A stretch of DNA of 64,000 bases from Sagittula marina (GTDB lineage Bacteria; Pseudomonadota; Alphaproteobacteria; Rhodobacterales; Rhodobacteraceae). Position 1 is the stretch's first letter. Each line of letters begins with the position of its first letter. Shown here one piece after another: positions 5,341 to 45,731 of this stretch. The translations under genes and the position numbers were made by a program. The notes under the pieces were generated by a model. That model was not told the origin of the DNA. It worked only from the letters and a program-made list of their open reading frames with translations, and made no database searches. The stretch lies in assembly GCF_014196795.1 (NCBI RefSeq), contig NZ_JACIEJ010000002.1:372001-436000 (forward strand). The letters are read 5' to 3'.

Positions 5341-6513
5341 CTACATGCGTTCGATGGCGATGGCCGTGCCTTCGCCGCCGCCGATGCAGATGGCGGCCAC
5401 CCCACGCTTCAGCCCGCGCTTTTCCAACGCGTTCAGCAAGGTGACGATGATCCGCGCGCCGGAGGCACCGATGGGATGGCCCAGCGCGCAGGCCCCGCCG
5501 TTCACGTTCACGATGTCGCGGGGCAGGCCCAGTTCACGCATGAACGCCATGGGCACCACGGCGAAGGCTTCGTTCACCTCCCACAGGTCGACGTCGGATA
5601 CCTTCCACCCGATGCGGTCCAGCAGCTTGCGCGCCGCCGGGACAGGCGCCGTGGGGAAGTCCTTGGGCGCCTGCGCGTGGCTGGAATGGCCCAGAATCCG
5701 GGCGCGCGGCGTGGTGCCTTCGGCCTCTGCCGCCTCCAGCGTGGTAAACACCAGCGCCGCCGCCCCGTCGGAGATCGACGAGCTGTTGGCCGCCGTCACG
5801 GTGCCGTTTTTGCGGAACGCGGGTTTGAGCATCGGGATCTTCTCGGGGCGGGCCTTGCCGGGTTGTTCGTCGCGCGTGATGATCTCTTCGCCGTGGCGAA
5901 GGTGCAGCGTGACCGGCGTGATCTCCCGGTCAAATGCGTCGGTGCGCTCCGCCTCCAGCGCGTTGGACAGGGAGGCCAAGGCGTATTGGTCCTGCGCCTC
6001 GCGGGTGAATTGAAACGCCTCCGCACAGTCCTCGGCAAAGGTGCCCATGAGACGGCCCTTGTCGTAGGCATCCTCCAGCCCGTCGAGGAACATGTGATCG
6101 ACGACCTGGCTGTGGCCGATGCGCGCGCCACCCCGCATCTTTGGCAAGATGTAGGGGGCTTCGGTCATGCTCTCCATGCCGCCGGCGACGATGGTCTGCG
6201 CATCGCCAAGCGCCAGCCGGTCCCAGGCCATCATCGCGGCTTTCATGCCGGAGCCGCACATCTTGTTCAGCGTGGTGGCGGGGACCTCGTCGCCCAGGCC
6301 AGCGGCAAAGCCTGCCTGCCGCGCCGGAGCCTGCCCCTGCCCGGCAGGCAAGACACAGCCCATCAGCAATTCATCCACCTGCGGCGCCCCGGCCTGGACC
6401 AAAGCGGCGCGAATCGCCGCGCCTCCCAATGTGGCGGCGGGCACCCCATCGAAAACGCCCTGAAATCCGCCCATCGGCGTGCGCGAGGCTCCGGTAATCA
6501 CCACGTCTTTCAT
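5341..6513 (-). CDS. Acetyl-CoA acetyltransferase (thiolase)
   Basis: 390 aa biosynthetic/degradative thiolase, condensing two acetyl-CoA or cleaving acetoacetyl-CoA. Active-site Cys is in LNKMCGSGMKA; the second site is NVNGGACALGHPIGASGARI (His), and the C-terminal CIGGGEGTAIAIER has the proton-donor region, normally C-x-G-G-G. The MKDVVITGASRTPMG start is typical, and AAGGGGAG precedes the ATG. Length is normal for the AtoB/PhaA group. No phaB or bdhA is adjacent, so a role in PHB versus ketone-body or fatty-acid turnover cannot be separated. It is transcribed divergently from the STAS-domain gene. Confidence 0.93.
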   Translation of the reverse strand: MKDVVITGASRTPMGGFQGVFDGVPAATLGGAAIRAALVQAGAPQVDELLMGCVLPAGQGQAPARQAGFAAGLGDEVPATTLNKMCGSGMKAAMMAWDRLALGDAQTIVAGGMESMTEAPYILPKMRGGARIGHSQVVDHMFLDGLEDAYDKGRLMGTFAEDCAEAFQFTREAQDQYALASLSNALEAERTDAFDREITPVTLHLRHGEEIITRDEQPGKARPEKIPMLKPAFRKNGTVTAANSSSISDGAAALVFTTLEAAEAEGTTPRARILGHSSHAQAPKDFPTAPVPAARKLLDRIGWKVSDVDLWEVNEAFAVVPMAFMRELGLPRDIVNVNGGACALGHPIGASGARIIVTLLNALEKRGLKRGVAAICIGGGEGTAIAIERM

Positions 6514-6601
6514 CGTCTCTCTCCCCTTCGTTCTCCAATGCATACCCAATGGTAAGGATTGGCGTCTAGGCTCTCTCCACGGCGCAACCACGAGGCAGCC
6601 C

Positions 6602-6931
6602 ATGCAGCTTACCAGACAAACCCGATCCGGCCTTGAGATGATCACCGTCGATGCCGACCGCATCGATGCTGCGGTCGCGATCCAGTTCAAGGACCGTATG
6701 CGTGAACTGCTGGCCGACGCCAGCGGACGTTTCGTCCTGAACCTCGAACGGGTGGATTTCATCGATTCAAGCGGGCTGGGTGCCATTGTCGCGGCAATGA
6801 AGCTTATGCCGCCAGGGGCGAAGCTGGAACTCGCGGGTCTCTCTCCTGCCGTGGACAAGGTGTTCCGCATGACCCGGATGGATTCGATCTTTACCATTTA
6901 TCCATCTGCCGACACGGCCCTGAGTGCGTGA
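6602..6931 (+). CDS. STAS-domain anti-sigma factor antagonist (RsbV-like)
   Basis: 109 aa single STAS domain. The phosphorylation loop VDFIDSSGLGAIVAAMK holds the Ser normally phosphorylated by the partner kinase, and the hydrophobic C-terminal half (VFRMTRMDSIF) is typical. In this family the unphosphorylated form binds and inhibits the kinase/anti-sigma factor. The start at 6602 follows GAGG. The next gene encodes the cognate HATPase kinase and lies 26 bases on, so this is a two-gene switch. No sigma factor, RsbU-type phosphatase or target transporter is adjacent, so the regulated process is unknown. Confidence 0.88.
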   Translation: MQLTRQTRSGLEMITVDADRIDAAVAIQFKDRMRELLADASGRFVLNLERVDFIDSSGLGAIVAAMKLMPPGAKLELAGLSPAVDKVFRMTRMDSIFTIYPSADTALSA

Positions 6932-6957
6932 ACCTGAGTCTCCGTGGGAGGATCGCC

Positions 6958-7416
6958 ATGAAAGCCCAGTGTTTGGACGGGGACAGGCTTTCCATTCGCA
7001 CGAGTCTGCGCAGCACCCCCGATGCCGTCAGCGAAACACTGCGGGAGGTACGTGTCCGGCTGAATGACATGCCCCCCCTGGACTGTCTCGACAGCACTTG
7101 GGAAGTGATTGTCGCCGAAGTGCTCAACAACATTGTCGAACATGCCTACGACGATAGCCACACGGGCGAAATCGATCTGACACTTTTATTCGGCCCGACC
7201 ACAATGAACGCTGAATTCATCGACTACGGCCGCGCCATGCCAAATGGCACTTTGCCGTGCCCGCGCGATGCGGATCTGGACGTGCCGCGTGCCGATCTGC
7301 CGGAAGGCGGATTTGGCTGGATGCTGATCCACACTTTGGCGAGCCACGTGGAATATCGCCACGATGGCGGAAGCAACCGTCTTGCCTTGGAACTAAGGCT
7401 AGATACCAAATCCTAA
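6958..7416 (+). CDS. RsbW-like serine-protein kinase / anti-sigma factor (HATPase_c)
   Basis: 152 aa GHKL ATPase of the RsbW/SpoIIAB type. N-box: EVLNNIVEHAYDD; G1 region: FIDYGRAMP (a degenerate D-x-G-x-A); G2: GGFGWMLIHTLA. It is expected to phosphorylate the upstream STAS protein and to bind a partner when that protein is phosphorylated. The ATG at 6958 is preferred to a GTG at 6928 because GGGAGGA sits six bases upstream and the longer start would overlap the previous stop without a ribosome site. The gene ends 922 bases before the next one, upstream of a hairpin-rich region and a terminator. Confidence 0.88.
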   Translation: MKAQCLDGDRLSIRTSLRSTPDAVSETLREVRVRLNDMPPLDCLDSTWEVIVAEVLNNIVEHAYDDSHTGEIDLTLLFGPTTMNAEFIDYGRAMPNGTLPCPRDADLDVPRADLPEGGFGWMLIHTLASHVEYRHDGGSNRLALELRLDTKS

Positions 7417-7479
7417 GCGCCCGCAAATGAACGCGTGGCCGTCCCATTCGCGCCCCAATCAAACGGCATTCTCAGGATT

Positions 7480-7546
7480 GTAGCTGCATAGGCTTCATCT
7501 CGGTGTCGGGTGTTATCAGCCCCCACCCAGTGCCCGGCACCGAGAT
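7480..7546 (+). repeat. Structured hairpin repeat, copy 1
   Basis: GTAGCTGCATAGGCTTC (7480-7496) is followed by a 14-bp stem (7497-7510 with 7533-7546; one G-U wobble) closing a loop that contains GTTATCAGCCCCCACCCAGT. The terminator at 7556 begins ten bases after the stem. The loop's CACCC could instead pair with the GGGTG at the top of the left arm. Confidence 0.75.
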
Positions 7547-7555
7547 CCTACACCG

Positions 7556-7581
7556 AACACGCCCAGCAGGCGTGTTTTTTT
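7556..7581 (+). terminator. Rho-independent terminator
   Basis: AACACGCC (7556-7563) and GGCGTGTT (7569-7576) form a perfect 8-bp stem with a 5-base loop, followed by a T-run to 7581. It would end transcripts of the rsbV/rsbW pair together with hairpin copy 1. Confidence 0.85.
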
Positions 7582-7667
7582 GTGCCCGTTGCACAGAACG
7601 GCGTTCGCCCAAAAATCACCATCTCAGCATCATGTTCCTGCCCTCATCGGAAACGATAAACGGTCTC

Positions 7668-7736
7668 GTAGCTGCATAGGCTTCAACCTCGGTTCCGGGT
7701 GTTATCAGCCCCCACCCAGTACCCGGTTCCGAGGTT
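7668..7736 (+). repeat. Structured hairpin repeat, copy 2
   Basis: The same 17-base leader (7668-7684) and the same 20-base loop (7701-7720), with a 16-bp stem 7685-7700/7721-7736 whose central two positions are T-T mismatches. The stem sequence differs from copies 1 and 3 while pairing is mostly kept. Upstream similarity with copy 3 extends about 25 bases further (CGGAAAC/CAGAAAC...GGTCT). Confidence 0.75.
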
Positions 7737-8204
7737 TCAATATTACGGACGCCGGCAGTCGATCGCACGCCAAACCTGCCGAGAGTGGCGTGGCACCATT
7801 GCCAAAAATGCCTCGCGGACCTTGCGAATGGCACCGTGCAACATCATCGGCCTACGGAACTCCGCCCCAAGATCAAACGGCATTGTTGCTCATCGTCTTG
7901 CTCACCTGCGCGAGCGCAACTTGCTCCTGTCGAACTCATGCTTCGAACGGCGCTGCCAGGCCGTGGATCGGCTCGTATTGCAGGTCTGACGGCGGATAGA
8001 CCTACTTCTGGTTTGCGATGCCCCCCTTGCCGCCTGACAATCATCGGCGCTTCCGTGACGACATTGCTCAATGATACGTCCTGCCAAGCCTGAGAAAGGA
8101 CCGCCCAATCCCACTCAGGGCCAGACGTCAAAAGAGAAAGACTGCCCGCAAAAGGTCTCGAAGCCTCCCCAATGCAGCCTCAATCAGAAACCATACATGG
8201 TCTT

Positions 8205-8271
8205 GTAGCTGCATAGGCTTCCCCTCGACACCGGGTGTTATCAGCCCCCACCCAGTGCCCGGTGTCGAGGG
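8205..8271 (+). repeat. Structured hairpin repeat, copy 3
   Basis: Leader at 8205-8221, perfect 14-bp stem CCCTCGACACCGGG (8222-8235) with its complement at 8258-8271, and the invariant loop. The central stem bases are the complement of those in copy 1, so the two arms changed together. It lies about 70 bases upstream of the gamma-glutamyltransferase gene. Confidence 0.75.
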
Positions 8272-8338
8272 ACTTTGCCACATATGTTGACGCCCACGCG
8301 CTACACCGACATGTTGCCCTGCGACACGGGAGAACAGC

Positions 8339-9913
8339 ATGCGCGATTTTCACACACCAGGCCGATCCGGCGTTTTGGCCGACAGCGGCATGTGCGCCAC
8401 GTCCCACCCCCTCGCGGCCTCTGCCGCCATCGACATTCTCCGCCAAGGCGGTAACGCCATGGACGCAGCAATTGCTGGCGCGCTGATCCTCGGCTGTGCC
8501 GAGCCGGCGATGACAGGTATCGGCGGCGATTGCTTTGCCTTGGTGGCGAAACCAGGGGTAGATGTCATCGCCGTAAACGGTTCCGGTCGCGCGCCCGCAG
8601 CCCTGACCGCCGATCAGATGCGAGCTGCCGGTCACAGCATCATGCCGCTGAATGACGCCAACGCGGTTTCCATTCCCGGTGCGATCGACGGGTTTTGCGC
8701 CATGTCGGAGCGGTTCGGCTCGCTTGGGCTGGCGGACAGCTTCGCCCCCGCCATTCGCTACATGGAGGACGGCATCCCCATCGCTGCCCGCGCCGCCTTT
8801 GACTACGGACAGTCCAGCCACGTTCTGCAAGCAGGCGCGCGCGCCCATTTCCTGCCTTGGGGTCGCCTGCCGCACGTGGGCGACCGCCTCGCCCTGCCCG
8901 GCCAGGCAGACGTGCTGCGCCGCATTGCCCGCGACGGGCGGGACGCGTTCTACACCGGCGACGTGGCCGAAGACATGGTCACCAGCCTGCGCGCCCTCGG
9001 CGGCACGCACACGCTCGACGACTTTGCCGCGCAAAAAACCACCTTTCACGCGCCGCTCTCTGGCCTCTACAAAACGCGGGAGCTGTTGGAGCATCCACCA
9101 AACGGCCAAGGTGTCACGGCGCATCTTTTGCTCAACATCCTGTCCCGCTTCGACATTTCGGCCATGGATCCGTTCGGGGCCGACCGGGTCCATATCGAAG
9201 CAGAGGCCGCGCGCCTTGCCTATGACGCCCGCAATCGCTTTATCGCCGACGCGGACCACATGGACCGGCTCGACCACCTGCTCAGCCCGGACACCGCCGA
9301 CCGTCTGGCGGCGCTGATCGACCCGAAACGCGCCAATGCCGCCCTGCTGCAAAGCGCCGACGCGGTGCATCGCGATACGATTTACATCACCGTGGTCGAC
9401 CGAGACCGCATGGCCGTGTCGCTGATTTATTCAATCTTTCATGGGTTTGGTTCGGGTCTGGCCTCCGAGAAGCTTGGCATCCTTTTCCAAAATCGCGGCG
9501 CGGGTTTTTCGCTCGCCCCGGGACATCCCAACGAACTGGCGGGCGGCAAGCGTCCCATGCACACCATCATTCCCGGAATGGTCCGAGACGACGGGCGCAT
9601 CACCATGCCCTTTGGCGTCATGGGCGGGCAGTATCAGCCCATGGGCCACGCGCGCCTTCTGAGCAACCTCACCGATTTTGGCATGGACCCGCAGACCGCC
9701 ATTGACGCTCCGCGCAGCTTTGCTGACGGGCCGGTGCTAAAGCTGGAGCGCGGCTACAGCGCCGACGTCGCGGCGGAGCTGGCCGCGCGCGGCCACAAGA
9801 TCGACATTCCCGAAGTGCCCATCGGCGGCGCCCAGGCCATCGTGATTCACCCGTCCGGCGTGCTCGAAGGGGCATCAGACCCGCGCAAGGATGGGTGTGC
9901 CATCGGGTATTGA
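8339..9913 (+). CDS. Gamma-glutamyltransferase family protein
   Basis: 524 aa Ntn-hydrolase of the gamma-glutamyltranspeptidase/acylase family, autocleaved in family members into large and small subunits. The N-terminal 'ATSHPLAASAAIDILRQGGNAMDAAIAGAL' block is diagnostic. The predicted cleavage/nucleophile residue is Thr347 in HRDTIYITVVD, followed by MAVSLIYSIFHGFGSGL and the late MGGQYQPMGHARLLSN block. No clear signal peptide is visible, so it may be cytoplasmic rather than periplasmic as in E. coli Ggt. The start ATG is preceded by GGGAGAA. Substrate (glutathione, another gamma-glutamyl amide or an acyl amide) is unresolved. Confidence 0.9.
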   Translation: MRDFHTPGRSGVLADSGMCATSHPLAASAAIDILRQGGNAMDAAIAGALILGCAEPAMTGIGGDCFALVAKPGVDVIAVNGSGRAPAALTADQMRAAGHSIMPLNDANAVSIPGAIDGFCAMSERFGSLGLADSFAPAIRYMEDGIPIAARAAFDYGQSSHVLQAGARAHFLPWGRLPHVGDRLALPGQADVLRRIARDGRDAFYTGDVAEDMVTSLRALGGTHTLDDFAAQKTTFHAPLSGLYKTRELLEHPPNGQGVTAHLLLNILSRFDISAMDPFGADRVHIEAEAARLAYDARNRFIADADHMDRLDHLLSPDTADRLAALIDPKRANAALLQSADAVHRDTIYITVVDRDRMAVSLIYSIFHGFGSGLASEKLGILFQNRGAGFSLAPGHPNELAGGKRPMHTIIPGMVRDDGRITMPFGVMGGQYQPMGHARLLSNLTDFGMDPQTAIDAPRSFADGPVLKLERGYSADVAAELAARGHKIDIPEVPIGGAQAIVIHPSGVLEGASDPRKDGCAIGY

Positions 9914-45656: not shown

Positions 45657-45731
45657 GGGTGATTAGCTCAGCGGTAGAGCACTTCGTTGACATCGAAGGG
45701 GTCACTGGTTCAATCCCAGTATCGCCCACCA
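45657..45731 (+). tRNA. tRNA-Val (GAC)
   Basis: 75 bases with encoded CCA. Acceptor GGGTGAT (45657-45663) pairs with ATCGCCC (one G-U); D arm GCTC-AGCGGTA-GAGC; anticodon loop TTGACAT with GAC at 45689-45691 between CTTCG and CGAAG; T arm CTGGTTCAATCCCAG. All four stems fold. It lies upstream of rpmJ and is probably processed from a shared transcript. Confidence 0.96.

Follow-up and report, generated by a model that had tools for sequence, protein, structure and literature searches.

A probable small regulatory RNA of Rhodobacteraceae, missing from Rfam and present in three copies in Sagittula marina

The CcsR and alpha-r14 small RNAs (sRNAs), found in Rhodobacter and rhizobia, have tandem C-rich-loop hairpins with CCUCCUCCC loops. 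ChvR of Caulobacter crescentus is an sRNA activated by ChvI, with chvT as its target (PMC6237742). In GsrN, the general stress sRNA of Caulobacter, a C-rich 5′ loop is the most conserved part and pairs with G-rich mRNAs; GsrN homologues are usually found near stress-regulator genes (PMC5869019). StsR of Rhodobacter sphaeroides is under the control of RpoHI/RpoHII (PMC8307010).

Here, we describe a hairpin element that occurs three times in a 64-kb stretch of Sagittula marina DNA (the whole stretch being referred to as ‘the window’). Judging from its sequence, the element is probably a small regulatory RNA, one that Rfam lacks; it is unusually widely conserved and is preceded by an unusual array. 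The copies lie at 7480–7549, 7668–7738 and 8205–8274, all on the + strand, and each consists of a small 5′ hairpin and a second hairpin of 14–15 bp with a loop of 18–20 nt (Table 1).

A scan of the entire 64-kb window placed exact matches to the leader GTAGCTGCATAGGCTTC at 7480, 7668 and 8205 and exact matches to the loop GTTATCAGCCCCCACCCAGT at 7512, 7701 and 8237; neither had a fourth match in the window even when up to three mismatches were allowed. Three matches were reached in none of 100 shuffles, and the copies are therefore not a product of chance, in agreement with the first-pass annotation of this DNA, which had described three same-strand copies with a fixed leader and loop. The loop is likewise absent from the rest of the 5.04-Mb genome at up to three mismatches, these three places being its only occurrences. 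Copies 1 and 3 fold into 15 unbroken pairs closing a 20-nt loop, and copy 2 folds into 8 + 7 pairs flanking a 2 × 2 U-U internal loop, with a terminal loop of 18 nt. The fold z-score is −5.2 for copy 1 folded together with the terminator that follows it, −3.8 for copy 2 and −4.3 for copy 3, and equally stable structures were obtained from 0, 0 and 1 of 200 shuffles, respectively. The stems had been said to differ while still pairing. This proved correct: in the alignment, the differences between the stems of copies 1 and 3 are compensatory, and the mismatches of copy 2 form the U-U internal loop.

Two further readings of the copies were rejected. A two-state fold, in which GGGTG would pair with CACCC, had been suggested from the window; using a regular expression, GGGTG was found opposite CACCC in 3 of 143 distinct copies, all of them the window's, and the fold is possible in none of the others. 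A peptide-coding reading was set aside with the candidate start ATGGCT being present in 26 of 107 copies. The terminator previously noted after copy 1 was recovered as a terminator-like site at 7555–7577, 8 nt past the copy. For copies 2 and 3, our terminator finder returned none within about 85 nt, and across the family it places one within about that distance in only 21 of 135 copies, a shortfall that speaks against an sRNA and leaves the 3′ ends of the other family copies unexplained. The conserved RNA would measure about 70 nt per copy; counting the terminator brings copy 1 to about 100 nt. Elsewhere in the window, a tRNA-Val gene (45657–45731) is the sole match for both Rfam and ARAGORN.

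Table 1. Features of the element and its surroundings in the window (positions counted from the first nucleotide of the window)
Feature	Positions	Strand	Basis
STAS-domain anti-sigma antagonist, rbaV-like, upstream	6479–6931	+	PF01740 and TIGR00377 above cut-off
HATPase, RsbW-like (rbaW-like), upstream	6928–7416	+	Exceeds the PF13581 cut-off but not those of the RsbW equivalog models
Copy 1, array of GCC/CC direct repeats in phase, probably an activator site; three of the four phased places have CC	7419–7462	+	Below strict score
Copy 1, −10-like hexamer CATTCT	7467–7472	+	Conserved place −14 to −9, logo of 62 copies
Copy 1, leader forming small hairpin I	7480–7496	+	Exact match, fold; variants in divergent members
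Copy 1, main hairpin II, loop 7512–7531 with core GCCCCCAC	7497–7546	+	Loop match, fold, alignments
Copy 1, terminator-like hairpin and T tail	7555–7581	+	Terminator scan
Copy 2, degenerate direct-repeat array (7608–7651) and −10-like GATAAA (7655–7660)	7608–7651, 7655–7660	+	Placed by logo; below strict score
Copy 2, leader, small hairpin I	7668–7684	+	Exact match, fold
Copy 2, main hairpin II, its stem interrupted by the U-U internal loop; conserved loop sequence at 7701–7720	7685–7736	+	
Sequence lacking a hairpin, possibly left over from a fourth promoter unit	7863–7884	+	82% repeat of 7449–7470
Copy 3, phased GCC direct-repeat array (8144–8187) and −10-like CATACA (8192–8197)	8144–8187, 8192–8197	+	Logo, strict score
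Copy 3, leader, small hairpin I	8205–8221	+	Exact match, fold
Copy 3, main hairpin II, loop 8237–8256	8222–8271	+	Loop match, fold
Gamma-glutamyltranspeptidase (ggt), downstream	8339–9913	+	PF01019 above cut-off; TIGR00066 just below

The loop pattern, at up to three mismatches, was matched in 36 of 101 genomes, background included. A covariance model (R1) was built from alignment A3, which comprises 33 copies aligned with MAFFT (locus L037 having been rejected as weak and L040 omitted). Such a model, together with a search of relatives, had been proposed as a check by the first-pass annotation; under strict filters, R1 matches 296 of 394 genomes of the family Rhodobacteraceae, representing 295 of 393 genera, and has no match in the other 98. 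Of 289 genomes drawn from across the class, five match at E ≤ 0.01, four of them in Rhodobacteraceae. Presence outside the family was rejected, the locus (L234) of the genome in question (G437, E 0.0057) being without the loop core. Among the loop-pattern stretches—at least 120 in number—78 of the 80 loci listed fit the model; the exceptions, L080 and L141, match the loop pattern only. Most of the listed loci are titled Rhodobacteraceae or Ruegeria, Celeribacter, Roseovarius, Thioclava, Rhodovulum, Marivita, Salipiger, etc. One locus (L082) is titled Enemella evansiae TN21-6, which we take to be an actinobacterial name; its model score equals that of L025 (G005 contig 8, Rhodobacteraceae), and the label is probably wrong.

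Selection on the main stem is evident in these homologues. Compensatory changes, the absence of which had been named as grounds for abandoning the structure, are widespread: in A3, which was not fitted to the model, 11 of 14 stem pairs show double changes, 97.8% of cells pair and none of 500 shuffles reaches any of five covariation measures. A5 comprises 110 matches, 107 of them distinct; here double changes affect 12 of the 14 stem pairs and 96.6% of stem cells pair, falling to 33–54% when the whole structure is slid as a control, although counts from A5 and A6 lean towards structure because these sets were fitted to the model. No counts were taken from A4, which contains 16 antisense matches. 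The helix was then compared with a null in which substitutions were re-thrown on the tree. On A5, the stem sum G is 561.8, vs. a null mean of 77.4 and maximum of 222.6 (400 runs). On a divergent-rich set of 63 rows—including 27 non-divergent rows and omitting the last four A6 matches, of which three are antisense and one is a weak same-strand match (L292 1897–1958)—it is 618.9, vs. a mean of 90.3 and maximum of 186.3 (1000 runs), with 13 of 14 stem pairs at p ≤ 0.02. The stem therefore exceeds the helix-level tree nulls on both sets, and the earlier claim of a selected structure stands. The covariation check succeeded at the level of the helix but not at that of individual pairs: an all-pairs R-scape-like test with its own heavy-tailed null, a rougher instrument, returned no single pair at E < 0.05.

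The small 5′ hairpin does not rise above the tree null on A5; on the 63-row set it scores 51.5, vs. a null mean of 14.9 and maximum of 90.7, which lends it weak support. Versions of it seen by eye in divergent members are AGCU/GGCU, AGCG/CGCU, AGCC/GGCU and AGCA/UGCU-like. Also by eye, the leader AGAGCGAGA of four Celeribacter loci (L136, L079, L115 and L146) can pair with TCTCGCT past the main stem, closing a larger fold.

Whether the selected structure was one of RNA or of single-stranded DNA (ssDNA) had been left undecided, and only the former has held. Stem cells read on the + strand contain 169 G·U combinations vs. 16 A·C; a G·U pair is an A·C mismatch on the opposite strand, and the selected molecule is therefore RNA of the + strand. 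The loop core GCCCCCAC is present in 140 of 143 distinct copies, but loop invariance in A3 and most of A5 arises by construction because those copies were fetched through the loop pattern. A fairer figure is 35 of the 38 copies in A5 and A6 that were fetched by the model instead of the loop pattern, even if the model itself still scores the loop.

The region upstream of the element is conserved as well. A logo of 62 copies (L040 was omitted, having no anchor) shows C-rich half-sites, in most cases with A or T after them, at −60, −49, −38 and −27; a box resembling CATACA spans −14 to −9, and position −1 has G. Across 131 upstream regions, including the copies in which the motif was first found, CC occurs in phase at the four half-sites 2.2 times per copy, vs. 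0.06–0.4 at shifts of 2–9 bp. In 35 divergent copies unused in motif discovery, a period of 11 bp again gives the best value (4.01, vs. 2.6–3.1 for periods 8–10 and 12–14), and a high array score is attained by 49% of them, vs. 1.6% of shuffles. Within the 64-kb window, only the array of copy 3 scores 17 or more; copies 1 and 2 do not reach the strict array score, and neither does the chvI locus. A sigma-70 consensus scan found no promoter. For copy 1, transcription is predicted to start near 7480, and the repeat at 7863–7884 may be what is left of a fourth copy that has decayed.

The S. meliloti ChvI consensus is quoted as N-GCC-N8-GCC (PMC9731502). The arrays match this pattern at the level of the family and, in the window, strictly in copy 3 and partly in copies 1 and 2. 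The C. crescentus ChvI motif identified by MEME, TTGC-N3-GCAA (PMC9731502), differs from the array and counts against ChvI. The host has a gene row comprising a response regulator, a ChvG-like kinase, hprK, rapZ, EIIA and HPr, an operon order that fits chvI-chvG; the best model for the kinase is ChvG NF058527, at 360 bits vs. a cut-off of 740. Since the GCC array resembles the S. meliloti consensus and the host carries chvI-chvG-hprK, ChvI is a good candidate for the activator of the copies, an assignment towards which we lean slightly. CenR was rejected for this role: its R. sphaeroides site is TGA-N8-TGA (PMC9275681), i.e. the half-site is TGA and not GCC.

The STAS-domain and RsbW-like genes upstream of copy 1 resemble rbaV/rbaW of R. 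capsulatus, a pair whose loss affects both the production of gene transfer agents and viability in stationary phase (PMC3999984). When loci with rbaVW upstream, or with ggt, DUF805 or gshA downstream, are assigned to this rbaVW/ggt locus (‘locus A’), it accounts for 108 of 127 loci, with 16 lying elsewhere and 3 undecided for want of room; the 127 count some genomes twice (L025/L082; L039/L105). The 16 form a second class, in which DUF2794 always adjoins (16/16), accompanied by an M17 aminopeptidase (14/16), an NlpC/P60 protein (14/16) and a glutathione-dependent formaldehyde dehydrogenase (11/16). A glutathione-related gene is found near both classes, namely ggt (8339–9913 in the window) and the formaldehyde dehydrogenase (8473–9675 in L027).

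We consider it likely that the repeats are separate genes for small RNAs of a single family and that each product is an sRNA acting through its loop. That the element is a trans-acting sRNA appears quite probable, and action by base pairing is somewhat favoured; a trans-acting, loop-pairing sRNA is suggested by analogy with the ChvI-activated ChvR and with GsrN and its C-rich loop. The copies would be turned on by a response regulator of the OmpR family, for which ChvI, from the envelope-stress system ChvG-ChvI, is the most likely candidate; the stem would present the C-rich loop, which would base-pair in trans with G-rich stretches of mRNAs, altering their translation or decay, and tandem copies would raise the dose. 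Against this explanation stand the 98 family genomes that R1 did not match, the scarcity of terminators and the failure of the all-pairs test to single out any stem pair. A search of 61 genomes for the perfect complement VGGGTGGGGGCT, which is rarer than its reversed control, combined with a comparison of congeners, brought out no mRNA target. Two candidate sites were rejected: GGTGGGGGCT, common to the congeners G001, G002 and G003 (own genome not included), lies inside a UbiA-family (ubiA) frame, and the one exact GGGTGGGGGCT outside the copies (in L047) comes after the stop codon of an open reading frame on the list and at no clear gene start.

That empty search is one of the points in favour of an RNA that binds a protein, the C-rich loop on its variable stem serving as a decoy or scaffold and the copies titrating an RNA-binding protein. 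A fixed loop on a stem free to vary and the tandem arrangement would also suit such a role. We know of no candidate protein for the C-rich loop motif, however, and in GsrN a loop of this kind pairs with G-rich mRNAs (PMC5869019); protein binding is rated as unlikely, albeit less so than the readings that make the element part of a neighbouring transcript or of a mobile sequence.

The gene neighbourhoods bear on these latter readings together. At many instances of locus A, the ggt match begins only about 50–150 bp past the last hairpin on the same strand, as would be expected if the last copy lay in the ggt 5′ untranslated region and regulated ggt in cis; similarly, at locus A the element mostly follows rbaW on the same strand, which would fit a processed rbaVW 3′ untranslated region—a stabilizing hairpin or a 3′UTR-derived sRNA—without a promoter of its own. 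However, four stretches in which no ggt was detected (L024, L028, L151 and L154) contain the hairpin, as do four with no detected rbaVW (L031, L091, L108 and L149) and the second class, from which it follows that the element behaves as an independent gene and not as a fixed part of one mRNA. A cis-acting ggt leader is made quite improbable by these ggt-less stretches, by the two or three copies that can precede ggt, by the terminator that closes copy 1 in the window and by the second class, which has other neighbours and a terminator past the hairpin in 11 of 16 loci. Even less can be said for the 3′ untranslated region, given the conserved array and −10-like box upstream of the element, tandem copies hundreds of bases away and retention of the element where rbaVW is undetected and in the second class. 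Repeated hairpins with fixed flanks had also raised the alternative of a mobile or ssDNA element (REP/RAYT, attC or an insertion sequence remnant). We regard this as scarcely credible: 108 and 16 of the 127 loci fall into two fixed neighbourhoods, the element's three copies sit at one place with no others dispersed in the genome, and its wobble pairs are biased to one strand.

A structured RNA that occurs in about three quarters of the genera sampled yet has no Rfam match would rank as a core post-transcriptional regulator in a family of ecological importance, and its upstream array offers a direct hypothesis, namely control by ChvI. Much more tentatively, the element might be the Rhodobacteraceae counterpart of ChvR and GsrN combined: an ancient, multi-copy, ChvI-driven envelope-stress sRNA in most sampled genera, its near-invariant eight-base loop core GCCCCCAC serving a large G-tract regulon as a general seed (or acting as a protein decoy), and the sRNA tying ChvG-ChvI signalling to the neighbouring RbaVW partner switch.

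As the first-pass annotation had surmised, no Rfam family accounts for the element: in release 15, none reaches its curated threshold at the window copies or in 20 homologous loci, the best weak match at the copies being P9, at 19.6 bits vs. a threshold of 43. This absence of an Rfam match sets the element apart from CcsR and alpha-r14, which also differ from it in loop sequence and gene context. No description of the element was found in the accessible portions of the literature searched (including PMC8307010, PMC11354728, PMC5089854, PMC9731502, PMC6237742, PMC5869019, PMC8625941, PMC3688512, PMC9275681, PMC12363192, PMC10659215, PMC3999984, PMC4809877 and PMC5107571). It may nevertheless be known as a transcript under another name, for instance as StsR, UpsM or one of the published P. 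denitrificans and R. pomeroyi sRNAs. StsR is, like the element as read here, a stress sRNA of Rhodobacteraceae, and the two could be identical. GsrN shares the conserved C-rich loop and the proximity to stress-regulator genes but differs in its predicted structure and in having a sigma-EcfG promoter, whereas the element has a GCC direct-repeat array and rbaVW as neighbours. The likeness to ChvR lies in the probable ChvI-type control and in a structured hairpin RNA with pairing regions in its loops (PMC6237742); ChvR differs in lying upstream of recF and in having three predicted hairpins, and the array of the element is nearer to the S. meliloti ChvI consensus than to the Caulobacter MEME motif.
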